From Serinicoccus kebangsaanensis (lineage in GTDB: Bacteria > Actinomycetota > Actinomycetes > Actinomycetales > Dermatophilaceae), in the NCBI RefSeq assembly GCF_008919445.1, contig NZ_VSLG01000002.1, positions 62,001 through 126,000 of the forward strand: DNA of 64,000 bases. Direction: 5' to 3'. Under the pieces are notes generated by a model. The model was given only the letters and a program-made list of their open reading frames with translations. It was not told the DNA's origin and did not search any database. Made by a program: the position numbers and the translations under genes. Shown here in pieces: positions 8,299 through 27,646 of this stretch. Position 1 is the first letter of the stretch. Each line of letters starts with the position of its first letter.

Positions 8299-8712
8299 TC
8301 ACCCCTCGCCGGCGTGCTCCTCGAGCATCTGGGTCAGCTGGATGAGGTTGCCGCACGTGTCGTCGAGCACCGCGGTGCGCACCGTGCCCATGTCCGTGGG
8401 TGGCTGGGTGAAGCGCACCCCCTTGTCCGTCAGCTCCGCGTAGGCGGCCTCGACGTCGGCGACACCGAACATGGTCAGCGGAATGCCGTCGGCGACGAGG
8501 GCGTCCTTGAACGACCGGACCGCAGGGTGACCTGACGGCTCCAGCAACAGCTCGACCCCGTCGGGGGCCTCGCTGCTCACGACGGCCAGCCACCGGTCCT
8601 CACCGAGGTCGATGTCGGTCTTCGTCACGAATCCGAGGACGGTGGTGTAGAAGCTGAGCGCCTTGGCCTGGTCGTCGACGTAGACGGACGTGTGCGTGAT
8701 CGCGGGGTTCAT
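8299..8712 (-). CDS. VOC-family (glyoxalase/bleomycin-resistance-like) protein
   Basis: This is a 137-residue single VOC module: ITHTSVYVDDQAKALSFYTTVLGF at the N-terminus and VRTAVLDDTCGNLIQLTQ at the C-terminus. The pattern is that of small glyoxalase-like proteins, often annotated as lactoylglutathione lyase-related but functionally diverse. It starts 8 bp after the stop of the ArsR-type gene on the same strand, so it is probably the gene that regulator controls. It converges on dgdA with a 5-bp gap. Confidence 0.85.
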   Translation of the reverse strand: MNPAITHTSVYVDDQAKALSFYTTVLGFVTKTDIDLGEDRWLAVVSSEAPDGVELLLEPSGHPAVRSFKDALVADGIPLTMFGVADVEAAYAELTDKGVRFTQPPTDMGTVRTAVLDDTCGNLIQLTQMLEEHAGEG

Positions 8713-8720
8713 CTGGCTCC

Positions 8721-8996
8721 TCAGGTGGGGTCGACCGGCCAGCGGTCATGGATCTCGCGCAACGGCGAAGGGGTGAAGTGGTGCACCTTGCTGCGGCCGA
8801 CTCGTGCTGTCTCGACGAGGCCGGCCGACGTGAGCACCGAGATGTGCTGCGAGATGGCCTGCCTGCTCATGCTCACTCCGTGCACGGTGACGAGCCGGGC
8901 GCAGAGCTCGAAGAGGGTCTGCCCGTCACGTCGCTGCAGCTCGTCGAGGACGAGTCGTCGCGTGGGATCGGCCAGTGCTGCATAGACGTCTCCCAC
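8721..8996 (-). CDS. ArsR-family HTH repressor
   Basis: The product is a small winged-helix protein (91 residues from GTG 8996). The pattern VYAALADPTRRLVLDELQ followed by MSRQAISQHISVLTSAGLV is the ArsR recognition helix region. No clustered metal-binding Cys set is seen, so it resembles the SdpR/non-metal subgroup. A longer in-frame start at ATG 9032 exists, but its first codons would be made of the palindromic operator at 9008-9027, so I prefer the GTG at 8996. It forms a two-gene unit with the downstream VOC gene. Confidence 0.82.
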   Translation of the reverse strand: MGDVYAALADPTRRLVLDELQRRDGQTLFELCARLVTVHGVSMSRQAISQHISVLTSAGLVETARVGRSKVHHFTPSPLREIHDRWPVDPT

Positions 8997-9007
8997 ACGT
9001 GGAGCAT

Positions 9008-9027
9008 ATGCAAGCGTGTGCTTGCAT
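9008..9027. promoter_or_regulatory. Probable ArsR operator
   Basis: Perfect 8-bp arms ATGCAAGC and GCTTGCAT are separated by GTGT, immediately upstream of the preferred start of the ArsR gene. Position and symmetry suggest autorepression of the ArsR-VOC unit. Confidence 0.6.
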
Positions 9028-9061
9028 GTCAAGGATCGGCGAGCCGGCTCGCGACCGGGAC

Positions 9062-9623
9062 CTACGGCCGTGGGCGGTAGCGCAGGGCGGCCGCCCCCGA
9101 CCCGAACTGCTGCCGGTCGACGAGCTCGAGCTGGACGCGGTCGTGCAGACCGGCGAGGAGGGTCGGCCCGTGCCCCGCGATGACCGGCTGCACCACGAAG
9201 ACGTACTCGTCGATCAGGCCGAGATCCGCCAGGGCCAGCGGGAGGGTCACACCGCCCACGAAGAGCCCCTCACCCGGTTCCTGCTTGAGCCGCTGGATCT
9301 CCCGCCCCAGGTCGCCCCCTAGACGCTGGGCATTCCAGTCGACGTCATCCAGGGTGCTCGACACCACGCACTTGGCAGCCCGGTCGATGATGTCGGCGAA
9401 CGGGATCTGCCACTCGACCATCCAGGCCGGCCAGCTCCCCGAGGCCGGACGCCGCCAGGCCGACTCCATCATCTGGTAGGTCACCCTGCCGAAGATCAGT
9501 GCGTCGGCCCGTGCCAGCTCGGCGGTCCAGAACCGCATCGACTCCTCGTCGGGCGGAAAGGCCCGCCTCGTGGTGGCAGCAGCCGTCGAGCGTGACGTTG
9601 ATCGCGTAGCGAAGTGGCCTCAT
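9062..9623 (-). pseudogene. RibD/DHFR-family reductase with a frameshift
   Basis: ATG 9623 begins MRPLRYAINVTLDGCCHHEAG, the typical start of the RibD C-terminal/DHFR-like family. After about 21 codons the frame must change to continue with PPDEESMRFWTAELARADAL and GRVTYQMMES, GGVTLPLALADLGLIDEY and a normal C-terminus ending at 9062. A single extra base in the AAA run at 9557-9559 (plus strand) accounts for the shift. Removing it gives one uninterrupted protein of about 186 residues, the usual family size. It is either a recent pseudogene or a sequencing error. A downstream ATG at 9538 opens only a truncated 158-residue protein lacking the first strand. Confidence 0.8.
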
Positions 9624-9673
9624 CTCACGCCCCTGACCGCGCGTGGACGTCGCTGCCCCCGACGGACAGGGGC

Positions 9674-11039: not shown

Positions 11040-11129
11040 CTAGACGACCCAGCCACCACCGGGTCCTGGGACCACAGCGAAGGTGCCGCCCAGCAGTTGC
11101 ACGCGTTCCGACATACCCGTGAGGCCCCA
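11040..11129 (-). pseudogene. C-terminal stub of a NarL-type sensor histidine kinase
   Basis: Read on the minus strand, this stretch encodes WGLTGMSERVQLLGG, then TFAVVPGPGGGWVV and a stop. This is the typical end of a HATPase_c domain of a HisKA_3 kinase (GxGLxGMxERV). It ends 26 bp before the response regulator start, exactly where the kinase gene should be. Upstream of the Trp codon the similarity stops and no kinase sequence continues. The stub marks the breakpoint where unrelated accessory DNA begins. Confidence 0.72.
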
Positions 11130-11368
11130 GCAAGTCGGACAAGGCAGACTGGGAAAGGGCCATCGGTGAGATCTCCTCTGGTGAGTACTTGGCGGTACAC
11201 ACCGAGCATCTCGCCGATGACCCCTCTACGTCAGGGAGCCACACCCACTCCCCAAACCCCACACCCCACGGGACTCCTACCTTCGGCAGCAAGCCGTTCT
11301 CGGGGGCCAACGCGTTCCTTGAGGAGGACGGGCGCGAGCCGATCGACTGGCGGATCCCGGATCTGTAA
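11123..11368 (+). pseudogene. Possible C-terminal fragment of an unknown gene
   Basis: On the plus strand an open frame of 81 codons follows the kinase breakpoint and has no start codon after the preceding TGA. Its composition looks coding: KADWERAIGEISSGEYLAV near the beginning and FLEEDGREPIDWRIPDL at the end. I do not recognise the family. It is probably the tail of a gene truncated when the accessory block was formed. The following 11369-11580 shows nothing I can assign. Confidence 0.3.
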
Positions 11369-11580: not shown

Positions 11581-12333
11581 TCACGCGATCATCGCCTCGA
11601 GCGCTTCGACCACCGACTCCAAGGCCTCGAGGTCTTGCTTGACCTCTGTCACGGTGAGCGGTGCCCGGCCCCGACCGTGTCGGTCCCCGGTGTGCACGAT
11701 CTTGTTCCGCCGCTTGGTGATGCGCTCCAGGAGGTCGAATGAGGTTCCCTTCGGGACCTTGCGATGGTGGTCCATCTGATTGGTCCACTTGGTGATCCCG
11801 ATGAGTGACAGCAGTTCGCCCAACTTGGAGGGCGAGGTGCTGGCCAGTTCGTTGATATGACGCACCATCACGCGTTCACGCAGTCCTCGGCGCCGACGTT
11901 GGTAGTCGGTCTCGATGTCGAGCCAGTCTCCCACCGTGAGAGGCACCTTGCGCATCCGGTCAGTCGCGCTCATGTTCGCCCTGAGCAGTACGCCGGCGCG
12001 CTCGATGGCCTTGTCCGACAGGTACGTCTCGGTGGCTGCGCATGCAGCAACCAGCGCTTGACGCAGGAGTGGCTTGTGGTCTGAGAAGTGTGCACGGCTG
12101 AGTCCTGAGCCGGGTTTGAACACGACGAGGACGTCGCCGCTCTCAAGGCAGTCCAACTCGCCGCGTTGCTTGGCAGGGATCCGCATGGCATCGCCCACCC
12201 GCTCACGGAGCTCGCGGCGCATCCGGTAGGCACGTTGATTGGTGAAGCCTTCGGCCAGGCGCACGAGGTGGTGAGCGTCCTCCATGTTCGCCTTGAAGGA
12301 CTCCAGGGGCGACAGCTTCGCGACGCCGCTCAC
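11581..12333 (-). CDS. HEPN-like protein of a helicase operon
   Basis: This 250-residue, highly charged and mostly helical protein has R209 and H214 in RNKIVH, the Rx4-6H signature of HEPN ribonucleases, set in the usual context RITKRRNKIVHTGDR near the C-terminus. HEPN proteins commonly act as RNase toxins in abortive defence systems. The GTG start overlaps the stop of the helicase gene by 4 bp (GTGA), indicating translational coupling. The exact subfamily is not recognised; the RxxxxH motif alone can occur by chance, but the helical context and operon support it. No antitoxin-like nucleotidyltransferase is adjacent, so the helicase or HAD protein may control it. Confidence 0.65.
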   Translation of the reverse strand: MSGVAKLSPLESFKANMEDAHHLVRLAEGFTNQRAYRMRRELRERVGDAMRIPAKQRGELDCLESGDVLVVFKPGSGLSRAHFSDHKPLLRQALVAACAATETYLSDKAIERAGVLLRANMSATDRMRKVPLTVGDWLDIETDYQRRRRGLRERVMVRHINELASTSPSKLGELLSLIGITKWTNQMDHHRKVPKGTSFDLLERITKRRNKIVHTGDRHGRGRAPLTVTEVKQDLEALESVVEALEAMIA

Positions 12334-15300
12334 ACCGACTCCTCGAACACTCCGCGGGCTAGTTGCTCGATCTGAGCGGCGTCGATGCCGTCGGGTGGTT
12401 GGCCTTCGGTCGACCAGACGAGTGTTCCCTCAGGGCCTCCGCCTTCGGTCCACGGGGCGATCCCGTGGTTGGCGTACCACTGCCTCTTGGCCTCCCAATC
12501 GGCGCGGTAGCCAGCCTTGTCCAGCATTCCCAGGTGCTCCCAGTAGGTCGGCGTAGTTCCGGGGCGATGGATGGTGAAGTCCGGGAGTCGGCGGGTTCCG
12601 TCTGGCATCACGAGTGGCTGCTCGTACAGGTATTCCACACCCAGTGACCTCAGTGTGTTGGCCACGATGACCTCGGACTTAGAGATGACGAGTTCTCCGT
12701 TGGCCGTGCGGTGGACATGCGCCCCGTCGCGCAGACGGCCGTCTGCGGCCTCGAATGGCGATGGCGGGCGGAAGAGGCGCGTAAGTCGCCGCCCGGTCTC
12801 CGATTCGAGCGGACCGGCGACGCGTCGGAGGTCGGACGGATCTCCCTGGATGAGGAGCACGCACTTGCGTTGGTGTCTGGTCAGTGCGGTGTACAGCAAC
12901 TCCGGGGACAGGAGTGGGCAAGGGTTGGGGACGACGACGAACGTGAGCCCGAATTGGGATCCTTGGGACTTGTGGACCGTGACCGCGTAGGCGAGTTCGA
13001 GTTCCTCGACTCCGTCGTTGTCGCCGTTGAGGTCGGATGCCCAGAAGATGAAGTGCAGGCCAGGCTGGGTGGACAACTCGACCTTGAGGCCCTTGTTCCC
13101 TGCCCACCAGGTGGCAATGCCGATCTCGCCGTTGGCTACCTCGGCCTTGACCTTGGCTTTGTCGGCGATGCGCTCGGCCTTCATGCCGTGATTGCGGACC
13201 ACCATCACCTTGTCGTGGTAGAGGATCTCGTCGGCGCCCATCGGTGGGGGCAACCTGTAGTTGTCCCTGGCGCTGGCCGCGTCCTGGCGCCGCCACGTCC
13301 GCCGCACCAGCCGGTTGAGGCCGTCAACGCCACCTTTCCTGGCCCGGACCGGTGACAGGAGTTGCCAGTTCTCGGCTCCCTCGCCGCCCGTGCCGAAGTC
13401 GAATGCGGGTCGGCCCATGTAGCTCGAGGTCGCGCCAAGGGATTCCTTCAGCGCATCGGAGGTGCCAGGGGCGAGTCGGTACTCATCGACAAGCGTGTCG
13501 ACGACAAGGTCGTGTAGTTCCTCTTCGGTCTCCCACCGCTTGATCAACACAGAGCCGTCGCCGGTGCCGTTCAACACGCGGGCGAACGCCTCGTCGGCGG
13601 CGGGGTGGGCGGAGTCGGTGGCGAAGAAGGCGGCGACGGCGAGGTCGTCTCGACCCGAGTCAGAGCCGGTGATCGTTCCCGTGGTGCCGCGCTGCCGCCG
13701 GCCGATGGTGAGCTGGGCGATCCCGCCTCCCGTGGGCTGTGCCTCGACGCCAGCAGAGGACGATGCGTTGAGATCGGCCAGGTGGCGGATGAGGTCTGCG
13801 AATGGCCGGCCCGCCCCGATGGGTGGGAGCTGGCGGTGGTCGCCGCAGAGGATGAGTCGGTCGACTCCGGTGACCGCGGCGAGGAGCGCGGCGAGCATCT
13901 CCTCCGTGAGCATGGATGCTTCGTCGACGATGACCGTGTGGTAGGAGCCGATCTTGGCCGCGCCGTCCTTGATGTGGTAGCCGAACTCGTAGTCCCAGCG
14001 GCCGGAGGGGCGTAGGAAACTGGCGAGAGTCGCCGCCCTTTCACCGGTCTTGTCGCCGAGTTGGACGCGGGCCTTGCCGGTAGGCGCCAGGAGAAGCACG
14101 CGTCCGCGGATCTCCGGTTGGCTGCACAGTGCCTTGAGGAGTGTGGTCTTACCGGTGCCGGCGGGGCCGACGAGTGCCGATACGCGTGCTTGAGCCAGCG
14201 TCTGAAGCGCGAGCGACTTCTCGGCTCTGGCCAGGGGCTCGTCGACATCCGTCGGGTCGATGGGTTGAGCAATCGCCTCATCGACTGCTTGGGCCCAGTC
14301 CCAGGTGACGTCGAGTGGGCCTAGGTGAATGCGCTGACCAATCTCGTCTGCGATGAGGTCGCCAGCAGCGGCCAGCCGATCCAGTTGCCAGCCCCGGCCA
14401 CTCTCGGCGAGCGGCGTCTCCGCGAGAAAGGGGTGGAACTCGTCTGTGGCGAGCTCGAACAGATCGGTTTCCGGGTCACAGGTGGGTTCCAGGCCCAGGT
14501 TGCTGATTCGCCTCCTGAGTTGCGGCTCGTCGAGGAGTGTGTGCCCCTCGTCGATCGCTCGTTCCAAGACGTGGACGCATGCGGCTCGGACACGCCTATC
14601 GTCCGCCGCCTCACCGATCGGGTCGGGAAGTGGGCATCGATCGAGCGTCGCCTGGGCGTTCGCGGATCGAGGGAACAGGCCGCGGTCGATGGTGCCGAGG
14701 GTCAGGCCGTCGCGACGCCGTCGGTCGATCTCGTAGAGCTGGTACGGGTTGGCCAAGAGCTCGGAGTCGGTGACGATCGAGCCATCGATGCTCCGCTCGG
14801 TTTGGTCGAACAGTCGCCGTGCCTGATCCCTGGTGAGGTCAAAGCGTGCGAGGAGTCTCAGGAGTTCGTATCGTTCTGGTTGTTCCGCTAGCCGCTCCCA
14901 GGCCTTCCTGGCCATGCGGTGGACCAACCCGGTTGCCGGTCCCTTGCCCGAGGCCGCGTCCTTGATCGCGGACTCAAGGGCAGGCCAAGGGTCGTCTGCG
15001 GGGTCATCGAGTGAAGCGACCACCCGGTGCGCAATGACCGCTCCCCGAGCGAGTCCGGCAGCGGTAAGAACTGCACCGAGTCCCGGGTAGGCGCCACGCT
15101 GCGCCCACGCGTCGGCGATCCGGTCCTCGAGCCAGGTCGCGACCTGGTTCCACGGACCGTCGACGATTCCGGGAAGCATCTCCACTACGCGTGCGAGTTC
15201 GGTCAGTGCCTGGACAGCGGTGTCGTGGCTGACCAGTTCGGTGACGTATGAGAACTCCTCGAAGGAGTCCGGCGGCGCGATGGCAACGAACCGGGCGAGG

Positions 15301-16103
15301 TCATTGCCGCTGAGCTTCGGGTCGGCCAAGAGCTGCTGGTACGGAAGGAGGAAGCCGTCGGTGCAGTTTGGCGTGATCGAGTGAGCAACCGCGCGTTCCC
15401 ACATGATCGAGCGCAGCGGACCGGTGCCGTCGTACTCCCATTCGCTGGGCGGCGCCACTGACGTCACCAAGCCCGCGCCCACCAGGACGCGGCCACCGGG
15501 TGGTCGATCTTCGAGGAGCGGAACGTCCTTGGCGTAGATGAAGACCAGCGACCTCGTGGGAACAATGGCGGAGAAGAACGAGTCGAGCATCGCCAACTGG
15601 TTGCGGTGGTCTTGGACCCAATTCGTCTCGGTGCGCTTCTCGATGATCTCGTCGGCCCGGTCTTCCAAGGACCGGTCGTACTGAATGCCCCAGATGTCGG
15701 CGATCAGCTCAGCCTGGTCGCGCATCACCCAGCGATACGGCGTCGCCTCGAACGAGTACGCCGGCATGGTGTGCGTCGTGGTTGCGAAGTGCGCGTGCGA
15801 CCGCGTCCACCCACCGGCATAGGCATGGTCCCGGTCGATGGAGTAGGCACTCTCGCGCATGAAGCCGCCCCGCTCGAACACGCATGGAGGCACCCGCCGG
15901 CGGGGGAGGTCCGACCAAACCATGCCGCTGTCGTCGGACTCGGTCTCGGAGTCCTTGTTCTCCTTGATGTTCTTCAACACCGAGCAGAAGTGGTTCTCTC
16001 CAGGCTTGTCGCACACGCGCCCGGTCCAGTCGGTGTCGTGCCAAGGCACGCGTACGGACAGGTGCATCGGCGCGAGTTGCACGGCGCCTTCGGCAAGTGG
16101 CAT
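12330..16103 (-). CDS. RecD-like helicase with C-terminal PD-(D/E)xK-type nuclease
   Basis: The product is 1257 residues. The N-terminal 620 residues are unassigned and include PWHDTDW and a C-x6-H-x-C cluster (C31, H38, C40) that may bind metal. A superfamily 1 helicase follows: Walker A GPAGTGKTT at 646-654, DEAS at 727-730, GDHRQLPP at 754-761, and a UvrD_C_2 segment with TVHKSQGSQF and LLYTALTRH. Residues about 1145-1220 resemble a restriction-type nuclease: LPDFT near 1173, YWEHLG near 1187, and nearby Lys residues. ATG 16103 has GGGGAG nine bases upstream and immediately follows the HAD stop. DNA unwinding and cutting in anti-phage defence is inference. It overlaps HEPN by 4 bp. Confidence 0.78.
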   Translation of the reverse strand: MPLAEGAVQLAPMHLSVRVPWHDTDWTGRVCDKPGENHFCSVLKNIKENKDSETESDDSGMVWSDLPRRRVPPCVFERGGFMRESAYSIDRDHAYAGGWTRSHAHFATTTHTMPAYSFEATPYRWVMRDQAELIADIWGIQYDRSLEDRADEIIEKRTETNWVQDHRNQLAMLDSFFSAIVPTRSLVFIYAKDVPLLEDRPPGGRVLVGAGLVTSVAPPSEWEYDGTGPLRSIMWERAVAHSITPNCTDGFLLPYQQLLADPKLSGNDLARFVAIAPPDSFEEFSYVTELVSHDTAVQALTELARVVEMLPGIVDGPWNQVATWLEDRIADAWAQRGAYPGLGAVLTAAGLARGAVIAHRVVASLDDPADDPWPALESAIKDAASGKGPATGLVHRMARKAWERLAEQPERYELLRLLARFDLTRDQARRLFDQTERSIDGSIVTDSELLANPYQLYEIDRRRRDGLTLGTIDRGLFPRSANAQATLDRCPLPDPIGEAADDRRVRAACVHVLERAIDEGHTLLDEPQLRRRISNLGLEPTCDPETDLFELATDEFHPFLAETPLAESGRGWQLDRLAAAGDLIADEIGQRIHLGPLDVTWDWAQAVDEAIAQPIDPTDVDEPLARAEKSLALQTLAQARVSALVGPAGTGKTTLLKALCSQPEIRGRVLLLAPTGKARVQLGDKTGERAATLASFLRPSGRWDYEFGYHIKDGAAKIGSYHTVIVDEASMLTEEMLAALLAAVTGVDRLILCGDHRQLPPIGAGRPFADLIRHLADLNASSSAGVEAQPTGGGIAQLTIGRRQRGTTGTITGSDSGRDDLAVAAFFATDSAHPAADEAFARVLNGTGDGSVLIKRWETEEELHDLVVDTLVDEYRLAPGTSDALKESLGATSSYMGRPAFDFGTGGEGAENWQLLSPVRARKGGVDGLNRLVRRTWRRQDAASARDNYRLPPPMGADEILYHDKVMVVRNHGMKAERIADKAKVKAEVANGEIGIATWWAGNKGLKVELSTQPGLHFIFWASDLNGDNDGVEELELAYAVTVHKSQGSQFGLTFVVVPNPCPLLSPELLYTALTRHQRKCVLLIQGDPSDLRRVAGPLESETGRRLTRLFRPPSPFEAADGRLRDGAHVHRTANGELVISKSEVIVANTLRSLGVEYLYEQPLVMPDGTRRLPDFTIHRPGTTPTYWEHLGMLDKAGYRADWEAKRQWYANHGIAPWTEGGGPEGTLVWSTEGQPPDGIDAAQIEQLARGVFEESV

Positions 16104-16700
16104 CTACAGCATCTCCCCATGTGGCGCTGAGCGGCAGAGGAGCACGCCTGTGGGGAGATGGTGGTGCTCCGTGGCCTGCAGCCCGTACGTGCCCGTGTAC
16201 CGACCAGTCCTCAGGTCCTCCGGATCGACCCCCGCAGCAACATCGTGGTCCGGAGATGGGTACAGCACGTCGATGACTCCGTCAAGACCCGTGTGCCGGA
16301 GGCGCGACTCCGTCCAGTACGCGCCGGACTCGGGATAGGCAACGATCCGTAGTCCTCGGTTCTTCAGGGCACGGAGCTTCTCGTCCACTCCGGGGTACAG
16401 CCTCGTCGTGTGCTTGCGCGCCGAATTCTGGGCATGCAGTGCGTCGTTGAAGACATCGAAAGGGTCACGTCCATCTGCGAACTCGACCAGTGCGGGGACC
16501 TCGCGGATCAAGTTGGAGTACTCCGTGGTGCCTCGCTGTTGGTGAACCGCCTTGATCTGCTGTTCCAGAGTCTGCCGGTTCGCCCCACTTATGGAGACGA
16601 GCCCGTCGAGCAGGGCGCTGAACGACTGATACCACGCCTCGAACCAGTCCCAGAGCGTGTTGTCCAGGTCCGTGATCAGCATGCGAGGTCCCACCGTCAT
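16104..16700 (-). CDS. HAD-like hydrolase, C-terminally short
   Basis: The N-terminal DLDNTLW is HAD motif I (DxDxT), with an alpha-helical cap region and a motif II-type strand (RIVAYPESGAYW). The normal HAD second half, with the motif III lysine and the acidic motif IV (GDxxxD), is absent: after HLPTGVL the frame ends in CRSAPHGEML. The stop directly abuts the helicase ATG. The protein may be truncated, or it may have lost catalysis and kept a binding role. Several starts exist (TTG 16730; ATG 16718, 16706, 16700, 16682); ATG 16700 has an AGGGTGA stretch upstream. It is the first gene of the HAD-helicase-HEPN operon. Confidence 0.65.
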   Translation of the reverse strand: MTVGPRMLITDLDNTLWDWFEAWYQSFSALLDGLVSISGANRQTLEQQIKAVHQQRGTTEYSNLIREVPALVEFADGRDPFDVFNDALHAQNSARKHTTRLYPGVDEKLRALKNRGLRIVAYPESGAYWTESRLRHTGLDGVIDVLYPSPDHDVAAGVDPEDLRTGRYTGTYGLQATEHHHLPTGVLLCRSAPHGEML

Positions 16701-16857
16701 GCTCATCACCCTAGTCATGGGTACCGACAAGAGCCTGAGTCCGAGCAGCTCTCAGGCGCGTTTCTGCAGGGCGGAGGCGAGCCCGTACTGCTGCTGGGGG
16801 TCGAGGGAGTACCCACCACGATGCCTGACCAGCATCCCGAGCGCCGAGGTGGCGCCT

Positions 16858-17256
16858 TTGAAGCGAACCTTGCAGACTTACCTGCAGTCCGTCGCGGACC
16901 CGTCGGCGACCGACGTCGTACGCGGCTTGGACGAGACCGTGCAGCCGGGGACCGGGTACCGGTGCCTGAATCCCGTGTGCGATCAGATGTGCGCGTGGCC
17001 CTCCGGCTACGCGGCCGGCAGACCGACCAGGTTCTGCTCGCGTAGCCGCCGTCAGATGTTCGACCGGGTGCAAGCACGTCTCGCCTGGGAGGTCGACACG
17101 TTGGAGGCGTGGCTGCAGCAGGCCGATCTACTGGCCAAGGATCGCGCCGTCCTCGAACGCGCCGCCGGCCAGCCCCGGTGGGCCCTGGAGCGCTACCCCG
17201 ACACCGGGGTGGGGGTCGGCCGGCCCACGTCCTCACCCGGGAGCAGCTCAGGCTGA
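16858..17256 (+). CDS. Small zinc-ribbon-like protein
   Basis: This 132-residue protein starts at TTG 16858 with GAGGTG about seven bases upstream. It contains four closely spaced cysteines (CLNPVC, then QMC, then RFC after about 15 residues) that look like a zinc ribbon, followed by a helical charged segment (QMFDRVQARLAWEVDTLEAW) that may form a coiled coil. I do not recognise the family. It diverges from the HAD operon and converges on hsdR with a 9-bp overlap of the ends, so it sits between two defence modules. The start is uncertain, but codon use inside the frame looks coding. Confidence 0.5.
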   Translation: MKRTLQTYLQSVADPSATDVVRGLDETVQPGTGYRCLNPVCDQMCAWPSGYAAGRPTRFCSRSRRQMFDRVQARLAWEVDTLEAWLQQADLLAKDRAVLERAAGQPRWALERYPDTGVGVGRPTSSPGSSSG

Positions 17257-20200
17257 CTCGCGCAGGGTCTCCCAGAGCTTCATCATTCCCATGATCGCCA
17301 GGATCTCCTCGCGGGAACGGTCGGCGGCGAGGCGCTCCAGTCCGCGCTGCTGACTGTCGGTGGCCTCGACGATGACCTCCTGGATGGTGCGCCACAGGTC
17401 CGGTCCGGAGAAGAAGTCGAGCTTGTTGTTGGCGGCAGCCTGGGCGCGCAGGTCCTCGTTCTCGAGCATCTTGCGCAGCACCGTCTCGACCGCGGAGACC
17501 TGGTCGCCGTCGGAGAGGCCGTCGCCGTCGAAGAGGGTGTTGATGTGGGCCAGCACCTCCGACCACGGCACCAGGTCGGCCTCGTGGCGGCCACGGGATC
17601 CGGCTGCCAGGACGGACGCGAGCCCCTCGGCCTGCCCGGTCGCCAGGTCGAGTTCCTGCTCGGGCTGCTTGTGCAGCGCGTGGTGGGTCAGGGTGACGTC
17701 GGAGAGGTCGATGGTGTCCTCGTGCCGGTTGGAGTCCTTGAGGGCCTCGGCGAGCAGCCGCGCGAAGGTCGCACGCTTCTCCAGCTCGACGTCGTCGTAG
17801 TCGACGATCGCGGCGAGGAAGTCATACGTGCCGACGAAGGTGCGCAGGTCACGGCGGAAGGTGTCGAGCCGGTCGACCTCGCTGTCGTCACGACTCTGCA
17901 GTGCCCGCCGGTATGCCGTGTTGAACCTTTCCTTGACCGGCGCCAGCGCGGCGGACAGTTTCCCCTGGCTGGGTTTGGTGGTCCCGTCACCCCAGTACGC
18001 CTTGGCGCACCCGTCGACGTCCATGGCGTCGAAGAGGGCGACCCCGGCGAGCTTGTCCCACTGGTCGAAGACGATGTTGGGGTCGCTTGCCTGCGTGAGG
18101 TAGGCGCCCTCGTAGTAGACCTTGAACGCGTCGAGCACGTCCTCGGCCTGGTTGACGAAGTCCAGCACGTAGGTGGTCTTGCCCGGATACACCCTGTTGA
18201 GCCGGGACAGGGTCTGGACGCACTGCACACCGTCGAGGCGCTTGTCGACATACATCGCGCACAGCAGCGGCTGGTCGAACCCGGTCTGGTACTTGTTCGC
18301 CACGATGAGCACCTGGTGCTCCCGCGTCCCCAGCGCCTCCGGGATGGTCCGGCCGCGCAGGTCGGTGTTCATCGAGTGCTCGGTGAACTCCTCCGGCCCG
18401 GACTCGGGGTCCTCGACCGAGCCGGAGAACGCGACCAGGGTGGCGACGTCGGTGAGGTGGTGCTCGGCGATGTACTTGTCCATCGCCAGCTTGTAGCGCA
18501 CCGCAGACTTGCGGGAGTCGGTGACCACCATGGCCTTCGCATGACCGTCCAGCAGCGGCGCGACGTTAACGCGGAAGTGCTCGACGATGATCGCGACCTT
18601 CTGGCTGATGTTGTAGGGGTGCAGCTTGACCCACTGCATCACTGACTTCATGGCCTTGGACTTGTCGACCGTCTCGGAGTCGTAGTCCTGTCCACCGTGG
18701 ACCAGCCGGAACGCCGTCCGGTAGGTCGTGTAGTTCTTGAGCACGTCGAGGATGAAGCCCTCCTCGATGGCCTGCTGCATCGAGTACAGGTGGAACGGGA
18801 CCTTGTCGACCTCCCCTCCGGTGTCGGAGGTGCCGAACAGCTGGAGCGTCTTGCCCTTCGGGGTTGCGGTGAAGGCGAAGAAGGAGACGTTCGGCAGCGC
18901 ACCCCGCCCCTCGAGCTCCAGCCGCACCAGGTCGTCGACGCCGACCGTGTCGTCCTCTTCGGTGACGTCGTCGAGAACCTTGCCCGACAGGGTCTGTCGC
19001 AGCTTGTTGGCCGACTCCCCGGTCTGAGAGGAGTGGGCCTCGTCGATGATCACGGCGAACCGCTTGCCCGCCAGCGACTTCGACTCCCGGATCGCCTCTA
19101 GCGCGAACGGCACCGTCTGGATCGTGACGACGATGATCGCCCCGCCGGTGGTCAGCGCCTCGGTCAAGGCCTGCGACTTGGAGGAGAACCGTTTCGCGAA
19201 GTCGCTGTCGGTGCCCTGCCCGATGGGCAGCACCACGCCCCGCTTGTGGTCGATCTGGTAGATCGCGTCCTGCAGCTGGTCGTCCAGCACCGTGCGGTCG
19301 GTGATCACCAGGATCGAGTCGAAGACCTTGTCCGAGCTGGCGTCGTGCAGCGTGGACAGCTGGTGCGAGAGCCACGCGATGGAGTTGGTCTTGCCCGACC
19401 CGGCCGAGTGCTGGACCAGGTAGCGCTGCCCTGGCCCCTTCTCCTTCGCATCCGCTAGGAGCGTGGTGACCGCATCGTGCTGGTGGTAGCGCGGGAAGAT
19501 CACCGTCGAGGACCGGGTGACCCTGCCGGTCGCCGGGTCCTTGCGCTTGTTCACCTGCACGTGCATGAACTTGCCGAGGATGTTGAGCCAGGTGTCCTTT
19601 GCCAGCACCTCTTCCCACAGGTATGCCGTGGCAGCCCCGTCCGGGTTCGGCGGGTTCCCGGCATGACCGGCGTTGCCGCGGTTGAACGGCAGGAAGGGCG
19701 TCTCCGGACCATCGAGCCGGGTGGTCATGTAGACCTCGCTGTTGTCCACCGCGAAGTGCACGAGGGCCCGGTGCCCTGGAGCCAGCAGCGGTTCCCGGCG
19801 GCGGGTCTTGGGGTCCACCGGCGGGCGGTCATGGCGGTACTGGCGGATCGCCTCGTGCACGTCCTGCTGGAACTCGCTCTTCAGCTCGGCTGTCGCCACC
19901 GGCAGCCCATTGACGAAGAACACCAGGTCGATCGAGTCGGTCTTGTTCTCCGAGTAGTAGACCTGCCGGGCGACCCGAAGCCGGTTCTGGGCGTAACGCT
20001 TCGTCGTCGTCGGGTTCATCGACTCAGCCGGACGGAACTGGCACAGGTCCAGTTGCTTGGTGGACTTGAACCCGTAGCGCAACGCGGCCAGAGTCCCGCC
20101 GCCCGCGTCCAAGGGGCGGTCCAGCGACTCGGCAAGCCGGTCCAGCAGTCGCTCCCGGTCCTTATCGGTCTTCACGATTGCAGCGAGTGTTTCCGGCTGG

Positions 20201-20346
20201 GTGGCCTCCAGCCAGGCGAACAGGTCATCGGCCCACAGCGCCCGCTTCTTGTCGTAGCCGGTGGAGCCTGGCTCGTAGACCCACCCATGCGCCCCGAGGT
20301 GGTCGCACAACTCGTCCTCGAGCTGCCGCTCGTGCTCCACCGCCAC
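17248..20346 (-). CDS. hsdR: Type I restriction endonuclease R subunit
   Basis: The product is 1032 residues. The N-terminal nuclease domain shows D140 followed by E154-L-K156 (PD-ExK pattern in a GLPVATAELK context). The translocase shows QHSAGSGKTNSIAWL (Walker A), VIIDEAHSSQ (DEAH-type box) and FTATPKGKT, followed by a second RecA-like domain (VANKYQTGFDQPLL) and a helical C-terminus. HsdR translocates DNA and cuts at a distance when bound to HsdM2S. It starts at GTG 20346, 3 bp after the hsdS stop, in the order M-S-R. It appears complete and should be active. Confidence 0.95.
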   Translation of the reverse strand: MAVEHERQLEDELCDHLGAHGWVYEPGSTGYDKKRALWADDLFAWLEATQPETLAAIVKTDKDRERLLDRLAESLDRPLDAGGGTLAALRYGFKSTKQLDLCQFRPAESMNPTTTKRYAQNRLRVARQVYYSENKTDSIDLVFFVNGLPVATAELKSEFQQDVHEAIRQYRHDRPPVDPKTRRREPLLAPGHRALVHFAVDNSEVYMTTRLDGPETPFLPFNRGNAGHAGNPPNPDGAATAYLWEEVLAKDTWLNILGKFMHVQVNKRKDPATGRVTRSSTVIFPRYHQHDAVTTLLADAKEKGPGQRYLVQHSAGSGKTNSIAWLSHQLSTLHDASSDKVFDSILVITDRTVLDDQLQDAIYQIDHKRGVVLPIGQGTDSDFAKRFSSKSQALTEALTTGGAIIVVTIQTVPFALEAIRESKSLAGKRFAVIIDEAHSSQTGESANKLRQTLSGKVLDDVTEEDDTVGVDDLVRLELEGRGALPNVSFFAFTATPKGKTLQLFGTSDTGGEVDKVPFHLYSMQQAIEEGFILDVLKNYTTYRTAFRLVHGGQDYDSETVDKSKAMKSVMQWVKLHPYNISQKVAIIVEHFRVNVAPLLDGHAKAMVVTDSRKSAVRYKLAMDKYIAEHHLTDVATLVAFSGSVEDPESGPEEFTEHSMNTDLRGRTIPEALGTREHQVLIVANKYQTGFDQPLLCAMYVDKRLDGVQCVQTLSRLNRVYPGKTTYVLDFVNQAEDVLDAFKVYYEGAYLTQASDPNIVFDQWDKLAGVALFDAMDVDGCAKAYWGDGTTKPSQGKLSAALAPVKERFNTAYRRALQSRDDSEVDRLDTFRRDLRTFVGTYDFLAAIVDYDDVELEKRATFARLLAEALKDSNRHEDTIDLSDVTLTHHALHKQPEQELDLATGQAEGLASVLAAGSRGRHEADLVPWSEVLAHINTLFDGDGLSDGDQVSAVETVLRKMLENEDLRAQAAANNKLDFFSGPDLWRTIQEVIVEATDSQQRGLERLAADRSREEILAIMGMMKLWETLRESA

Positions 20347-20349
20347 GCC

Positions 20350-21597
20350 TCAGCCCGCCTTCCCGTAGGTGGTGACGTCCAACTTGCCCGTCACCGCCGC
20401 CGTGATCAAGGCCGCACGCCGCTCCCTCAGCTTGGAGCTCAGCTCCTGTGCCTTGGCCACCATCGCATCAACCTTGGGTGCATCGGCCGCCAACGCGCGC
20501 GCCACCTCGACCTGAGACTCCACGTGCGGCAATGGCATGGGCAAGTTGAGGAGGTCTTCCTTGCTGACGTTCTGCATCGAGTGGCTGGCCCCTGTTGCCT
20601 CCAGTTCGATTGCCTGACGAATGCGGGGGGTTCCCAGGAACGACGAGACGAACCAGGGATCGGCGACCCGTCGGTCCACCGTGATCGCGTAGGTTTTGTC
20701 GCTCAGCATCAGACGCGGGTAGTCAGCCTCCACCACTGCGGCACTTCCCACGAGGTCCCTTGTACTTGCTCGCGACATGACGATCTCCCCACGGCGGACG
20801 ACAGTCTCGACGCGCGGTTCAGCGTCCGCGGGCAGCAACTTGTTCTCCTGAGGCCGGAAGACTCCACCATTGACACAGCCCGTCTTGAGCACACCCCACT
20901 CCGTCACCCCGTCGGCCGGGACCGACTCACACTGCGGGCTCCACCCCTGCCGCATCTCGGTCACGAAGTGCTTGAGGCGTGCCCCAGACTCAAGGTCGAG
21001 CACCGATTCCACAGCTTGCGCGTTCGCTGACCGGTGATGTTCGCGAAGGCGGGCGACCAGCGCATCCTGCTTGCCGAGGAGCGCGTCAATCTTCGCCGTC
21101 TCGCGGTCCAGGAAATCTGCGATAACAGCCTGTTGCTGCAGGTCCGGCATCCAGATCGAGAGCTTGCCGATGTCGCTCTGGCGAAGCCCTACTCTGGTTA
21201 CTCCAGTGGCGAGAACCTGCCATTGCTGTGCCGCGGCCGACGACGCCAAGGACCAGTAGAGGTAGCGGGGGTGGACGGCACGCTCGCTTGGTCTGGCGAT
21301 CGCAACGTGGTAGCCACACACCAGCGGCGAAGAGGTCTGGACGTAGGCCGGCACGCCGATGTCATCTGCCGTCTCCGAGTCCTTCGTGAACAAGGTATCG
21401 CCTGGCGCGATGGAGAATCTCCTGATCTCGTCTGGCGTCGCCGTGGCGCTCATGAAGATGAGCCCGTCCACGATGGCGTTGTTCTTGTAGACATCCACGT
21501 AGTTGCACAGCCGAACGGGTACCTCCCCCTCGACCGTGTGCTTGTCCACCGTGCTCACCGAGACCTCGGCGACGTGACTGAGGCGGCTGAACGTCAC
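20350..21597 (-). CDS. hsdS: Type I restriction specificity subunit
   Basis: This 415-residue protein has two target-recognition domains, each followed by a helical spacer. The first spacer begins LQQQAVIADFLDRETAKIDALL (about 155-175); the second is ESQVEVARALAADAPKVDAMV near the C-terminus. This is the family's usual pseudo-symmetric layout and determines the bipartite DNA target, which cannot be read from the sequence. GTG 21597 overlaps the hsdM stop by 4 bp, implying coupled translation. The recognition domains show no sign of truncation. Confidence 0.92.
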   Translation of the reverse strand: MTFSRLSHVAEVSVSTVDKHTVEGEVPVRLCNYVDVYKNNAIVDGLIFMSATATPDEIRRFSIAPGDTLFTKDSETADDIGVPAYVQTSSPLVCGYHVAIARPSERAVHPRYLYWSLASSAAAQQWQVLATGVTRVGLRQSDIGKLSIWMPDLQQQAVIADFLDRETAKIDALLGKQDALVARLREHHRSANAQAVESVLDLESGARLKHFVTEMRQGWSPQCESVPADGVTEWGVLKTGCVNGGVFRPQENKLLPADAEPRVETVVRRGEIVMSRASTRDLVGSAAVVEADYPRLMLSDKTYAITVDRRVADPWFVSSFLGTPRIRQAIELEATGASHSMQNVSKEDLLNLPMPLPHVESQVEVARALAADAPKVDAMVAKAQELSSKLRERRAALITAAVTGKLDVTTYGKAG

Positions 21598-23573
21598 GAG
21601 TCGAGCTCCGCGAAGAGGTCCTGGATCTCGACGATGAGCCGCTTGACGTCCGCGTCGATCTCCTCCAGCGGGCGGGGCGGGACGTACTCGTAGAAGTGCC
21701 GGGGGAAGGGGATCTCGTACCCGATCTTGGTCTTCGCGTGGTCGACCCAGGCGTCGGGGACATAGGGGAGGACTTCGCGGGCGACATACTCGTCGATGTC
21801 CTGGCCGAGAGGGACGTTCTCGGTGTCCCGGAGCTTGGAGTCCGGCTCGGTGTTTCCCTTGGCGTCGGTGCAGACCTCCGCGGTCTCGTCACGCTCGCCC
21901 AGTGCTGCGTGGATGGCCTTGCGGACCGGGGATCCGACCTGGAGGTCGGCTTCACCGAGTGCCTTGCCCAAGGCCTGGTCGAACGCGGGCCGCTCCTTCC
22001 ACACCGTCTTGCGGTCGAGGGTCTGCAGGGCCCGGCGCAGCTGCTCCTGGGTGGTCTCGTCGAGCTTCTGCACCGCCTTGGCCTCGATTGCCGCATCGAT
22101 CCGCTCGGCCGTGGCCTGGAACGACAGCCGCAGCGGACGTTCAACGGTGATCGTGTGGAAGCCAAACGCCTCGCCCGGGAAGACCTTGGAGCGCTTGTCG
22201 TCGACGTCGTCGAACGCGGCATACAGCTTGACGAGGGTCTCGATGTCGGTCGGTGACAGCTCCTTGCGCTTGGACCCCAGCGACTTGCGCATCTTGGTGA
22301 ACATCTGCGAGCCGTCGATGAGTTGGACGTAGCCGCGGCGCTCGACGGGCTTCTTGCGGTCGAGCACCCAGATGTAGGTGGCGATGTCGGTGTTGTAGAA
22401 CATGTCGGTCGGCAGGGCGATGATCGCATCCAGCAGGTCTGACTCGATGACCCACCGGCGGATCTCTGACTCACCGGAACCGGCCCGTCCGGTGAACAGC
22501 GGGGACCCGTTGAGGACGATCGCGGCCCGTCCGCGGACGTTCTCGTCGTCGGGGTCGACGGTGCGCATCTTGTCGATCAGGTGGAGCAGGAACAGCATGG
22601 ACCCGTCGGAGACGGCGGGCAGGCCGGGGCCGAAGCGTCCGTTGAAGCCGAGCTGCTTGTGCTCCTTGACGACCTCGCGCTGCGAGGTCTTCCACTCCAC
22701 TCCGAACGGCGGGTTGGACAGGCAGTAGTGGAAGTCCTTGCCCGCGTGGGCGTCGTCGGTGAGAGTGTTGCCCAGGGCGATGGCGTCCACCGGCTGGCCC
22801 TTGATAATCATGTCCGCCTTGCACACGGCATACGAGCTGGGGTTGATCTCCTGACCGGCCATCAGCAGGCGGGCAGACGGGTTCTGCTCCCGCAGGTGCT
22901 CGTCCATCGTCGAGAGCATCCCGCCGGTGCCCGCGGCTGGGTCGTAGACGCGGCGGTTCACGGCCTTGCCCGGGGTGGTCGCATCCTCGTCGCCGACCAG
23001 CAGCAGGTCGACCATGAGCGCGATGACCTCACGCGGGGTGAAGTGCTCACCAGCGGTCTCGTTGCTCGCCTCCGCGAACTTGCGGATCAGCTCCTCGAAC
23101 ACCGAGCCCATCTCGGTGTTGCTGACGTGCTGGGGGCGCAGGTCCAGCTTGGAGAACTCCTGGACCACCAAGTAGAGGGCGTTGGCCTCCTCGAGCCGCT
23201 GCACCTGCTCCTCGAACCCGAACCGGGTGAAGACGTCGCGGACGTTGTCGCTGAAGCCGTCGACGTAGGAAAGCAGGTTGGCCTTGATGTTGGCGCTGTC
23301 GCCAGTCAGCGACGGGAGCGTGTAGGGCGAGGTGTTGTAGAACGAGTACTTCGAGGCCTTGCGCAGTTTGACGTCCAGCAGGTCCTTGGCCGTGCGTTCA
23401 CCTGAGCGCTCCTGCTCGGCCAGCACCGCGTCCTTCGTCGCCGCCAGGACGCAGTCCAGCCGGCGCAGGATCGTCATCGGCAAGACGACGTCGCCGTACT
23501 CCTTGGGCTTGTACGGCCCGCGCAGCAGGTTGGCGATCGACCAGATGAAGTTGGCGTCCGGCTTCGACGGCAC
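21594..23573 (-). CDS. hsdM: Type I DNA methyltransferase M subunit
   Basis: From GTG 23573 the product is about 659 residues. It has an N-terminal HsdM helical domain (SKPDANFIWSIANLLRG), SAM-binding motif I DPAAGTGGML, catalytic motif IV NPPFG preceded by HYCLS, and a longer than usual C-terminal region. It is an N6-adenine methyltransferase that pairs with HsdS. I prefer GTG 23573, preceded by GAGAGG, over the upstream ATG 23606, which adds eleven residues not expected in the family. It leads the M-S-R operon. A strong hairpin lies upstream at 23638-23675. Confidence 0.93.
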   Translation of the reverse strand: MPSKPDANFIWSIANLLRGPYKPKEYGDVVLPMTILRRLDCVLAATKDAVLAEQERSGERTAKDLLDVKLRKASKYSFYNTSPYTLPSLTGDSANIKANLLSYVDGFSDNVRDVFTRFGFEEQVQRLEEANALYLVVQEFSKLDLRPQHVSNTEMGSVFEELIRKFAEASNETAGEHFTPREVIALMVDLLLVGDEDATTPGKAVNRRVYDPAAGTGGMLSTMDEHLREQNPSARLLMAGQEINPSSYAVCKADMIIKGQPVDAIALGNTLTDDAHAGKDFHYCLSNPPFGVEWKTSQREVVKEHKQLGFNGRFGPGLPAVSDGSMLFLLHLIDKMRTVDPDDENVRGRAAIVLNGSPLFTGRAGSGESEIRRWVIESDLLDAIIALPTDMFYNTDIATYIWVLDRKKPVERRGYVQLIDGSQMFTKMRKSLGSKRKELSPTDIETLVKLYAAFDDVDDKRSKVFPGEAFGFHTITVERPLRLSFQATAERIDAAIEAKAVQKLDETTQEQLRRALQTLDRKTVWKERPAFDQALGKALGEADLQVGSPVRKAIHAALGERDETAEVCTDAKGNTEPDSKLRDTENVPLGQDIDEYVAREVLPYVPDAWVDHAKTKIGYEIPFPRHFYEYVPPRPLEEIDADVKRLIVEIQDLFAELDS

Positions 23574-23637
23574 AGTGGGGCGTCCTCTCGTGGTGCGTGG
23601 ACCCATCCTTGCCCATCAGGCCAGCCTCTCGGTGGAG

Positions 23638-23937: not shown

Positions 23938-24305
23938 CTCCTTCTCGACCCAAGTTGGGCCGGGTCTGGGAGGCCTCTAGACTTGGCGACTGCTACATCG
24001 AGGTTGTCTAGATGACCTCCGGCGGGGCGAGCGTTGCAAGCGCTCGTCCCGCTTCTTCTTGTGGACATGGACCCGTCTCTGCGGGCGGGCCCATCCTGAC
24101 AGCCACCACTGACAGCTGCCGGGCTCTCGGGGTAGGCCACGCGGTTGCGCGACGCTCCGGCGACCTGACCATTCATAACCAAATCTTTGCTTTCCACCGC
24201 TCATTGATAAGCGGCAGGAATGTTACATACGGACGGTCGCTGCGCAAGATTGGCTGCATCTCGACACCGGGATCCGGCAGCTCCACGACGTCCTCGTGAC
24301 CCGGC
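23938..24305. other. Intergenic region between dnaB and the island
   Basis: This 368-bp stretch has no convincing gene. It contains two tandem stem-loops (24022-24052 and 24067-24094), a separated inverted pair CTAGAC...GTCTAG around 23979-24012, and a relatively AT-rich patch near 24170-24240. On the minus strand an open tail ending in NERWKAKIWL at 24176 has no supportable start and could be a gene remnant. It is the best place to look for the right boundary of the accessory block. Confidence 0.4.
24022..24061. terminator. Stem-loop downstream of dnaB
   Basis: Twelve-base arms GCGGGGCGAGCG and CGCTCGTCCCGC (one G-U pair) enclose TTGCAAG and are followed on the plus strand by a pyrimidine run TTCTTCTT. 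A second hairpin (ATGGACCCG/CGGGCCCAT) follows at 24067-24094. No plus-strand gene ends here, so they probably serve the minus-strand dnaB transcript. Confidence 0.45.
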
Positions 24306-27300: not shown

Positions 27301-27386
27301 ACGTCCTGCGGCGGGAGGCGGTCCTCCGGGCCGCTCGGCGGACCCTGGTCCGGCGGTCCGTAGACCTCCACATCGCTCAGCGTCAT
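24306..27386 (-). CDS. dnaB: Replicative DNA helicase DnaB with two inteins
   Basis: The precursor is 1026 residues; removing inteins at 231-371 and 539-965 leaves a normal 458-residue DnaB. The N-extein holds the primase-interacting N-terminal domain (PPQDVAAERSALGSMM) and ends in AARPAVGK. The next extein starts STLALDVARS and includes VIIDYLQLM and LSQLNRGPEQR. The last extein begins SIEQDADVV and ends FTNMASNF. It is the hexameric helicase that opens the replication fork. ATG 27386 has GGAGG five bases upstream. Both inteins sit at essential motifs, so replication depends on splicing. It diverges from a MATE transporter across a DnaA-box-like cluster. Confidence 0.97.
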   Translation of the reverse strand: MTLSDVEVYGPPDQGPPSGPEDRLPPQDVAAERSALGSMMLSKDAIAECSEMVRAPDFYRPAHEMIFEACVDLYSRGEPVDAITVGDELTKRGDLQRVGGTAYLHQLIAEVPTAANAAFYAEIVAERAVLRRLVDAGTRIVQIGYQGGDVEDIVNAAQAEVYAVADKRGGEDYQALGMLIEPTMDEIEHAAGSSGEMTGVPTGFTELDELTNGLHPGQMVIVAARPAVGKALALDTPLPTPAGWTTMGEVTVGDALLGADGRPTRVVAATEVMEGRPCYEVEFSDGSVIVADEEHLWAVRGPEGSQVLTTGEVGRALESGILMGVERGGEDADSWQIREVRALESVPVRCVQVEAADHLYLAGRSMIPTHNSTLALDVARSAAIKHQMATVVFSLEMSRTEITMRLLSAESEIPLQNMRKGNMRDRDWTRLAETQGRITDAPLFVDDSPNMSLMEIRAKCRRLKQRNNLKLVIIDYLQLMSSGKRVESRQQEVAEFSRALKLLAKELEVPVIALSQLNRGPEQRTDKKPQMSDLRESGCLTADTRVLRADTGAEVTLGELHADGATDVPVWSLDESLRHVRRHLTHVFATGTRPVFRLTLTSGKTLTATENHPFLAYDGWKALGDLHAGDRIAVPRHVPAPEQHEPWADDHRVVLLAHMLGDGSMVKRQPLRYASIDEENLRAVTAAALSFGVVAVRDEYAAARCTTLRLRAPFRLARGRRNPIAEWLDDLGVFGLRSHEKYVPDPVFSLSKRQISLFLHHLWSTDGSVTVDKHQNGGRIYYASTSRRLIDDVSRLLLRFGISGRVRTVNKQGYRPGYTLDISGSDSQRRFLQEIGVFGGRSASAAQLLEIIRDRQANTNVDTVPREVWGDVRRVMSEQGMTTREFQAAIGTQYCGSTLYKSAPSRERLGRIATVLGSADLELHAVNDVFWDEVRSVELVGVEEVYDATVLGGHNFVANGIAVHNSIEQDADVVILLHRESLYERESPREGEADVIVAKHRNGPTDTVVVAFQGHYSRFTNMASNF
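24492..25772 (-). mobile_element. DnaB intein 2: class 1 with LAGLIDADG endonuclease
   Basis: It covers residues 539-965 (427 aa), inserted between SDLRESG and SIEQDADVV. Splicing residues are visible: Cys1 in CLTADTRVL, block B TENH, block F/G VEEVYDATVLGGHNFVANG and the terminal HN, with Ser as the +1 residue. Two endonuclease motifs are visible, AHMLGDGS and HHLWSTDGS, each with an acidic catalytic Asp, so homing activity may persist. Confidence 0.9.
26274..26696 (-). mobile_element. DnaB intein 1: class 3 mini-intein in the Walker A loop
   Basis: It covers residues 231-371 (141 aa), inserted between GK and ST of the P-loop. It begins with Ala (ALALDTPLPTPAGW) rather than Cys or Ser. It carries the class 3 W-C-T triplet: Trp in EEHLWAVR, Cys in PVRCVQVE and Thr in MIPTHN, with Ser as +1. 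Block B lacks the usual TxxH layout. No homing endonuclease is present. The internal Cys120 is the expected first nucleophile. Confidence 0.88.
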
Positions 27387-27495
27387 GCCGCCTCCACACC
27401 TGTCGTCAGCTCGTGCGAGAAGTCCAGCACCCACCGCCGACAGACCCGCAATCGGCCCACCGTACGGCCACCACGACGTGCGCGCAGCATCCCCG

Positions 27496-27646
27496 TGTGG
27501 ACGACCTGGGGACACCGTGTGGACGCCGTGGGGACAACCGACGCAACGGCCCAGCACGGGGTGTGGACACACCTGTGGAAACTCACGGAACTTTCGTCAC
27601 ACCGGGCCTCTGACCTGCGGCGATGCGGCGCCACCGCTGTGGATGA
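27496..27646. promoter_or_regulatory. Cluster of DnaA-box-like sites between dnaB and the MATE gene
   Basis: Five TGTGGA-type 9-mers occur in 150 bp, all in the same orientation: 27496 (TGTGGACGA), 27518 (TGTGGACGC), 27562 (TGTGGACAC), 27574 (TGTGGAAAC) and 27638 (TGTGGATGA). The actinobacterial DnaA box is close to TTGTCCACA (TGTGGACAA on the other strand). None is a perfect match. The location suggests DnaA control of dnaB. Confidence 0.45.

Follow-up and report, generated by a model that had tools for sequence, protein, structure and literature searches.

A minus-strand gene in a 64,000-nucleotide stretch of Serinicoccus kebangsaanensis DNA (contig NZ_VSLG01000002.1, positions 62,001 to 126,000; hereafter the window, numbered from its first letter) encodes a helicase-nuclease that, judged by its sequence, is a full-length member of the PADLOC candidate family PDC-S68 and is hence already catalogued. 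We tentatively propose that this protein is a reader-helicase-nuclease that restricts incoming DNA beside restriction-modification systems, a reading that we favour while placing it somewhat short of probable. In such a mechanism the N-terminal region, predicted to be an EVE/YTH-like reader, would bind DNA according to the modification state of its bases, the RecD2-type superfamily 1 (SF1) motor would translocate, in a direction that is likewise conjectural, and the PD-(D/E)xK nuclease would then cut. The helicase would form an extra layer beside type I restriction here and beside several kinds of methyltransferase system elsewhere, and a HEPN gene, appended locally, may in this strain supply an RNase effector coupled to the helicase in translation. 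The PDC-S68 family is already known; the predicted reader domain is the new idea. The gene and its predicted parts are:

12330..16103, minus strand: PDC-S68 family helicase-nuclease, 1257 aa; PADLOC PDLC05065, full length
15174..16079, minus strand: N-terminal region (residues ~9–310), predicted EVE/YTH (PUA-like) reader fold; AlphaFold2 model and VIA-align matches
12849..14894, minus strand: RecD2-type SF1 motor and preceding helical region (residues ~404–1085); Pfam and match to RecD2 3gp8
12459..12716, minus strand: PD-(D/E)xK-type nuclease, C-terminal (residues ~1130–1215); conserved residues and weak PADLOC matches

The match to the PDC-S68 profile (PDLC05065; E-value 0, 1321.5 bits) extends over residues 13–1253 of the helicase and positions 6–1219 of the 1221 in the model, and two sister PADLOC models score 516 and 378 bits. 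This supports the first-pass annotation, which had been made from the letters of the window, in regarding the helicase-nuclease as defence-related. Its statement that no named system could be recognised holds for the combination of the helicase with its HAD and HEPN neighbours, which has no such match, but not for the helicase alone, which is a named single-gene candidate. According to the part of the source available, PDCs are single-gene candidates from a guilt-by-embedding screen, and most of those in the core set still await experimental validation (PMC12988326). The Pfam families matched by the helicase are AAA_30, AAA_19 and UvrD_C_2, with no nuclease family among them; its nuclease part gives weak PADLOC matches to PDC-S69 and HEAT_CxxC_PDDEXK. 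The scores for the RecD2 model TIGR01448 (185.2 bits) and the exonuclease V alpha RecD model TIGR01447 (133.8 bits) are below the curated cut-offs of 500 and 310.15, respectively.

Searching genome contigs with a pattern of the N-terminal region gave 185 relatives. The best 80 were studied; these span many bacterial phyla and one ANME-2 archaeon, and the closest among them over the N-terminal 460 residues are from Paraliomyxa miuraensis (60%) and Nonomuraea rhodomycinica (56%). The single helicase protein used as query gave no match in the genome contigs. Of eight plasmid records that match the helicase at 1e-20, five do so over at least 80% of the query. Two viral contigs also match, one of them fully and the other over 72 residues. 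Our comparisons use a set of 87 loci (88 before L100, which has the same neighbourhood as L091, was dropped); L122, with 72 residues matched, and L040, which has no helicase, are outside it. Many of the 87 are short, and 53 reach at least 19 kb. At 1e-30 the PDC-S68 profile matches 39 of 396 same-phylum genomes, the own genome included, 34 of them over the shared motor only (within positions 477–794); the own genome (G000) and G036 match at full length, and G042, G283 and G017 give partial C-terminal matches. At the same threshold one of 14 control genomes, that of M. jannaschii, also matches.

The SF1 motor and C-terminal PD-(D/E)xK-type nuclease that had been read from the sequence are borne out by conservation across 74 full-length sequences (12 of the 87 loci, with a helicase open reading frame (ORF) outside 1150–1330 aa, were omitted from the alignments, and L034 and L048 additionally from the conservation alignment). 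The motifs lie at residues 20–26 (PWHDTDW), 646–654 (Walker A), from 727 (DEAS) and at ~1173–1192 (LPDFT...YWEHLG). Motor residues K652, D727, E728, Q758, R803, H1044, Q1047 and R1076 are invariant, nuclease residues E1161, D1175, E1189, H1190 and K1206 are present in all 74 sequences and E1144 in 73; because these are invariant or nearly so, the helicase observation is more than chance. In the N-terminal region H14, R18, W21, G28, N37, L186, Y190, W235, G250 and P254 are invariant. Each of the cysteines C31, C40 and C74 is kept in 73/74, and the Vibrio plasmid copy L035 has lost all three together, a pattern that points tentatively to a common metal or structural site. In the C-x6-H-x-C motif proposed earlier (C31 to C40) the two cysteines are conserved, whereas no residue holds a majority at the position of the histidine. 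In six of the 87 loci (L033, L034, L044, L048, L101 and L107) the helicase is split into two ORFs, with the nuclease part of L034 placed ~1.9 kb past the motor.

As judged from a structural model, we consider it rather probable that the N-terminal region has an EVE/YTH-type fold. The AlphaFold2 model of residues 1–560, made from 71 sequences, has a predicted local distance difference test (pLDDT) score of 94.8 and a predicted template modelling (pTM) score of 0.93. In the VIA-align structure comparison 990 chains were aligned and the best 50 entries considered, the safe level of the tool being Z 8. Rank 1 was RecD2 (3gp8, Z 6.4), on residues 404–560. Ranks 2–11 fell on residues ~9–330 with Z 4.7–5.7, aligning 119–139 residues at 3.6–5.3 Å, and include by title THYN1 (DUF55) and YTHDF2; lower down come YTHDF3 (rank 14) and the N-terminal domains of McrB (ranks 20–21). 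Entries of reader type occupy ranks 2–11, 14, 16, 20, 21 and 26 (Z 3.2–5.7); untitled ones, such as PH1033, we take to be EVE-type. To rank 26 all entries on the N-terminal region are of the EVE/YTH superfamily by title or by that assumption, and from rank 27 (Z ≤3.2) unrelated chains turn up. The EVE/YTH interpretation is favoured because the leading entries agree and cover most of each target. At the sequence level, HHH_RecD2 is matched in 29 of the 71 N-terminal members, one member weakly matches LON_substr_bdg, a PUA-like family (0.022; given no weight), and a profile of the region gave 15 matches among PDB sequences, the best of them (E 0.032) an unrelated helical protein. Three overlapping N-terminal segments head nine in hhalign scores (17.1–17.8 versus 9.0–14.2), and the longest hhalign alignment pairs helicase residues 175–220 with EVE residues 36–72; neither is significant.

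In the part of PMC7641849 available, a role as readers of modified bases in restriction systems is ascribed to EVE, YTH and related domains, and binding to DNA containing N6-methyladenine (m6A) is reported for YTH fused to an archaeal McrB; 'RecD' occurs 0 times in the available text of that paper. The combination of an EVE/YTH-like reader with a RecD2-type SF1 motor and a PD-(D/E)xK nuclease was not found described in the open-licence literature searched.

The type I restriction system noted in the first-pass annotation is a complete hsdM-hsdS-hsdR set, upstream of the HAD, helicase and HEPN genes on the same strand:

17248..20346, minus strand: HsdR, predicted type I restriction subunit; Pfam HSDR_N and SWI2_SNF2, PADLOC REase_I
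20350..21597, minus strand: HsdS, predicted specificity subunit; Pfam Methylase_S, PADLOC Specificity_I
21594..23606, minus strand: HsdM, predicted N6-adenine methyltransferase; Pfam N6_Mtase and HsdM_N, PADLOC MTase_I (908 bits)

Association with methyltransferase genes is also observed for the relatives. In 50 of the 80 loci (L041–L090), for which PDC-S68, PF02384, PF07669 and PF01555 were located in whole genomes, a DNA methyltransferase lies within 10 kb of the helicase in at least 23 genomes by hand tally, possibly an undercount as contigs are often short, against 2.99 expected from genome-wide densities; for PF02384 alone the figures are at least 8 genomes and 1.04. The corresponding tail probabilities, 5e-17 and 5e-6, are too small, since the genomes are not independent. 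When 900 neighbouring ORFs of at least 100 aa were clustered, an SNF2-like cluster (mostly ~1000 residues; the member in L111 matches SNF2, BrxH and DrmD profiles) was found in 30 loci, and homologues of HsdR, HsdM and HsdS in 12, 10 and 9 loci, respectively. Nine loci have a PF01555-type methyltransferase of ~600–700 residues, accompanied in seven by a family of ~1000 residues that, by analogy, may be Res-like; a long Eco57I-type methyltransferase occurs in eight loci and a IIG-like protein in three (L036 checked). The methyltransferase cluster names rest, for some members, on overlap in position with PF01555 and PF07669 matches. Taken together, recurrent restriction or SNF2-like clusters are present in 47 of the 87 loci, or in 35 if only the 53 that reach 19 kb are taken, a count made without background control.

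Homologues of type I subunits occur in 14 of the 87 loci, with HsdM and HsdR both present in nine. In L072, L085 and L099 the helicase is situated between hsdM and hsdS and overlaps hsdM by 4 nt, giving a four-gene form of the type I operon; such embedding has a precedent, since the part of PMC12255303 available describes a toxin-antitoxin pair placed between hsdS and hsdR of a type I system. PADLOC scans of the neighbours (108 of 141 upstream proteins, as 52 + 56, and 63 of 91 downstream, with the 25 commonest families per tally) include, among the matches listed, DISARM-, type I-, type IIG- and Hma-like proteins. Other neighbours are also seen. In L076, L080 and L112 (two Lachnospiraceae and one Butyrivibrio) an operon encodes proteins of ~840, 1190 and 1181–1212 residues, followed by the helicase. 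Recurring families of large proteins, mostly of 1500–1700 residues (one member 562), are found in L068/L079/L113/L121 and in L069/L095/L106/L117, the L068 member matching TmtA and helicase profiles. Directly upstream of the helicase in L065 and L087 (Virgisporangium and Dactylosporangium) is a protein kinase with a PD-T4-6 profile match.

Several observations weigh against the proposed reader-helicase-nuclease. The EVE/YTH matches reach at best Z 5.7, under the safe level of the tool. Foldseek searches with the N-terminal model found nothing at E ≤0.001 in either the PDB (158 matches to E 10, best E 0.45) or a viral library (best 0.28); the 50 PDB matches listed of the 158 include many 14-3-3 and armadillo proteins and no readers, and no readers are among the best 50 of 73 viral matches. 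Pfam matched 22 families in the 71 N-terminal members, with no EVE/YTH family among them, and hhalign comparison with six EVE-type proteins gave a probability of at most 1%, the EVE profile being thin (effective number of sequences, Neff, 2.2). As regards gene context, 40 of the 87 loci, and 18 of the 53 of at least 19 kb, lack every recurrent restriction or SNF2-like cluster, and in L041, the closest relative, a phage integrase is the next gene downstream of the helicase. The name PDC-S68 was not met in the open-licence literature searched.

As previously described for the window, three minus-strand genes are packed without gaps: the TAG of the HAD ORF directly abuts the helicase ATG at 16103, which is preceded by GGGGAG, and the GTG of the HEPN gene overlaps the helicase TGA by 4 nt. 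The two genes flanking the helicase are:

11581..12333, minus strand: predicted HEPN domain protein, 250 aa; PF18735, 2.6e-7
16104..16730, minus strand: HAD ORF, a 3'-truncated remnant; PADLOC 'Hydrolase' PDLC03008, motifs III/IV missing

The HEPN gene is intact and is, on present comparisons, at most a local partner of the helicase. Its product passes the gathering cut-off of PF18735 (HEPN_RiboL-PSP; 31.2 bits versus 28.4), covering profile positions 121–187 of 191 only, and the proposed RNase motif, RNKIVH, is found at residues 209–214, in keeping with the R-x4-6-H pattern that we take to define HEPN RNases. A single-sequence structure model is poor (pLDDT 42.4) and mostly helical. The closest relative found, on an S. 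cavourensis plasmid (43–44% identical), has RNLIAH, keeping the R and H of the motif, and no helicase or HAD is among the features annotated within 10 kb of it. At the 87 helicase loci there is no homologue of the window HEPN (phmmer E up to 0.01, ORFs of at least 60 aa), in a search that would miss more divergent HEPN families; the one match was L040, a positive control without helicase. PF18735 matches occur in 11 of 50 helicase-bearing genomes, seven over the cut-off, and on the helicase contig in none of the 50. With a profile of the window and Streptomyces proteins, the own genome was the only one matched among 394 same-class genomes at E 1e-10; a HEPN search of 396 same-phylum genomes gave the own genome and one weak 21-bit match, and there were no relatives in viral contigs, phages or PDB sequences. 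A role for HEPN as a regular partner of the helicase is rejected on its absence from all 87 loci, many of them short, and on the searches of the 396 phylum and 394 class genomes.

The HAD ORF is incomplete: it is, by alignment, a 3'-truncated remnant, the stump of a different module. It could start at TTG (16730) or ATG (16718) and has motif I (DxDxT, under the HAD motif definitions that we assume) as DLDNT at residues 21–25. The PADLOC 'Hydrolase' match covers positions 5–157 of 288 only, and the ORF aligns with its homologues to ~residue 198, ending before the KP-type motif III and the YVGD..KD motif IV, both of which are carried by the plasmid homologues L123, L125, L126 and L127 (annotated as 301, 288, 497 and 278 aa; the first part of the 497 aa in L126 was aligned). 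HAD is followed in L123 and L125 by a short, apparently membrane-bound protein that has hydrophobic stretches (by eye). The copy from Arthrobacter (L124) is likewise broken, with the C-terminal part carried on in the next ORF. The same phmmer search found no HAD homologue at the 87 loci. HAD is rejected as an active partner because it is truncated before motifs III and IV.

The site on the 3' side of dnaB is probably a hotspot of insertion at which the cargo differs between strains, as suggested by att-like repeats ~56–57 kb apart in same-genus genomes. The segment in the window is:

24206–24266, no strand: att-like segment, 3' side of dnaB; second copies in two same-genus genomes

These second copies lie ~56–57 kb away in G808 and G807 (G807:C1:169700-169820). 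The copies in G808 form a perfect 58-bp direct repeat (C1:2133600-2133657 and 2190440-2190497), and homologues of the left flank of the window (8319–9627) are found ~7 kb beyond the second. The dnaB region was matched in 17/17 same-genus genomes. A 4.7-kb query spanning HEPN, helicase and HAD gave no more than short matches across 23 same-genus genomes, those listed being under 80 bases. G+C over 12–26 kb of the window is 0.65–0.67, and in the flanks 0.68–0.75 on the left and mostly 0.70–0.77 on the right (0.67 at 32–34 kb). The dnaB gene itself (24306–27572) contains an intein with a LAGLIDADG endonuclease domain. Window positions 11127–11285 (~158 bp) are repeated at 92–94% identity in same-genus G803, G805 and G813 (twice), and 77 bp of them at 96% in G823.

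Alternatively, the helicase-nuclease may read no modification and instead, as a counterpart of RecD2/RecBCD-type enzymes specific to defence, degrade DNA after loading on ends or single-stranded DNA that phage replication or the restriction enzyme next to it has left. The fusion of a RecD2-like motor to a nuclease, the position of the helicase among or next to genes of type I, methyltransferase and SNF2 type, and the weak support for the reader fold would all agree with this account, which we nevertheless regard as unlikely: the ~300-residue N-terminal region with invariant residues from H14 to W235 and three cysteines (73/74) suggests a specific site beyond end binding, and the 40 loci lacking a recurrent restriction or SNF2-like neighbour weigh against it. 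It is also conceivable, and distinctly less likely, that the N-terminal region binds m6A placed by a partner methyltransferase and thereby keeps the nuclease inactive on host DNA. The enrichment of methyltransferase genes nearby and the m6A binding reported for the archaeal McrB-fused YTH domain (in the available part of PMC7641849) are consistent with such licensing; however, 27 of the 50 genomes have no methyltransferase within 10 kb among the matches listed, contigs often being short, and the neighbours come from several methyltransferase families, so that one mark is not implied.

Two further explanations give the HEPN gene a larger part. A two-gene abortive module, in which sensing of phage DNA by the helicase would lead to killing or stalling of the cell by a HEPN RNase coupled to it in translation, would account for the 4-nt stop/start overlap and for an intact HEPN whose R and H are kept in the one close homologue found, but it is improbable given that HEPN homologues accompany none of the 87 related helicases, that HEPN_RiboL-PSP is on the helicase contig in none of the 50 genomes, and that the gene is found in G000 alone among the class genomes and, in plasmids, alone in Streptomyces. 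The conserved HAD-helicase-HEPN defence system envisaged in the first-pass annotation has the gap-free packing in its favour, yet it is rejected here as very improbable indeed, because HAD lacks motifs III and IV, neither HAD nor HEPN is conserved as a neighbour (0/87 each) and HEPN_RiboL-PSP is absent from the helicase contig (0/50).

We return to the PDC-S68 reader-helicase-nuclease. In its most specific form, a build of modification-sensing EVE/YTH-like region, RecD2-type SF1 motor and PD-(D/E)xK nuclease would attack DNA whose modifications defeat neighbouring methyltransferase-based restriction, with the HEPN RNase coupled as a last-resort effector here; this fuller version is doubtful. 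If the N-terminal region does read modified bases, this would supply a mechanism for a widespread, catalogued candidate family and would open to test the idea that methyltransferase systems are paired with a modification-sensing helicase-nuclease. The locus also illustrates how a remnant, a mobile defence gene and a local neighbour can together make up a gap-free 'operon'.

Compared with known systems, the helicase matches the PADLOC PDC-S68 profile over its full length, and the window copy differs in having a coupled HEPN gene with no homologue beside the 87 relatives. The HAD ORF resembles the PADLOC 'Hydrolase' family over model positions 5–157 of 288, but is truncated and lacks the short protein that follows HAD in L123 and L125. 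DISARM, ARMADA and BREX-related (Hma) systems are likewise helicase-rich operons with a methyltransferase, and PDC-S68 genes lie near DrmD, DrmMI and HmaA profile matches; in the available main texts of the ARMADA and BREX/Hma papers (PMC12458937, PMC12839542) 'RecD' occurs 0 times. With RecD2, an SF1B helicase, the protein shares the motor and preceding helical domain, whereas it scores under the curated cut-off and is extended by ~400 residues at the N terminus and by a nuclease at the C terminus. Type IV restriction enzymes (McrBC, EVE/YTH-fused) are alike in the possible reader, a nucleoside triphosphate-driven motor and a PD-(D/E)xK nuclease; in contrast to these, the PDC-S68 protein has an SF1 DNA helicase rather than the McrB GTPase, is often near a methyltransferase, and carries a reader that is predicted.

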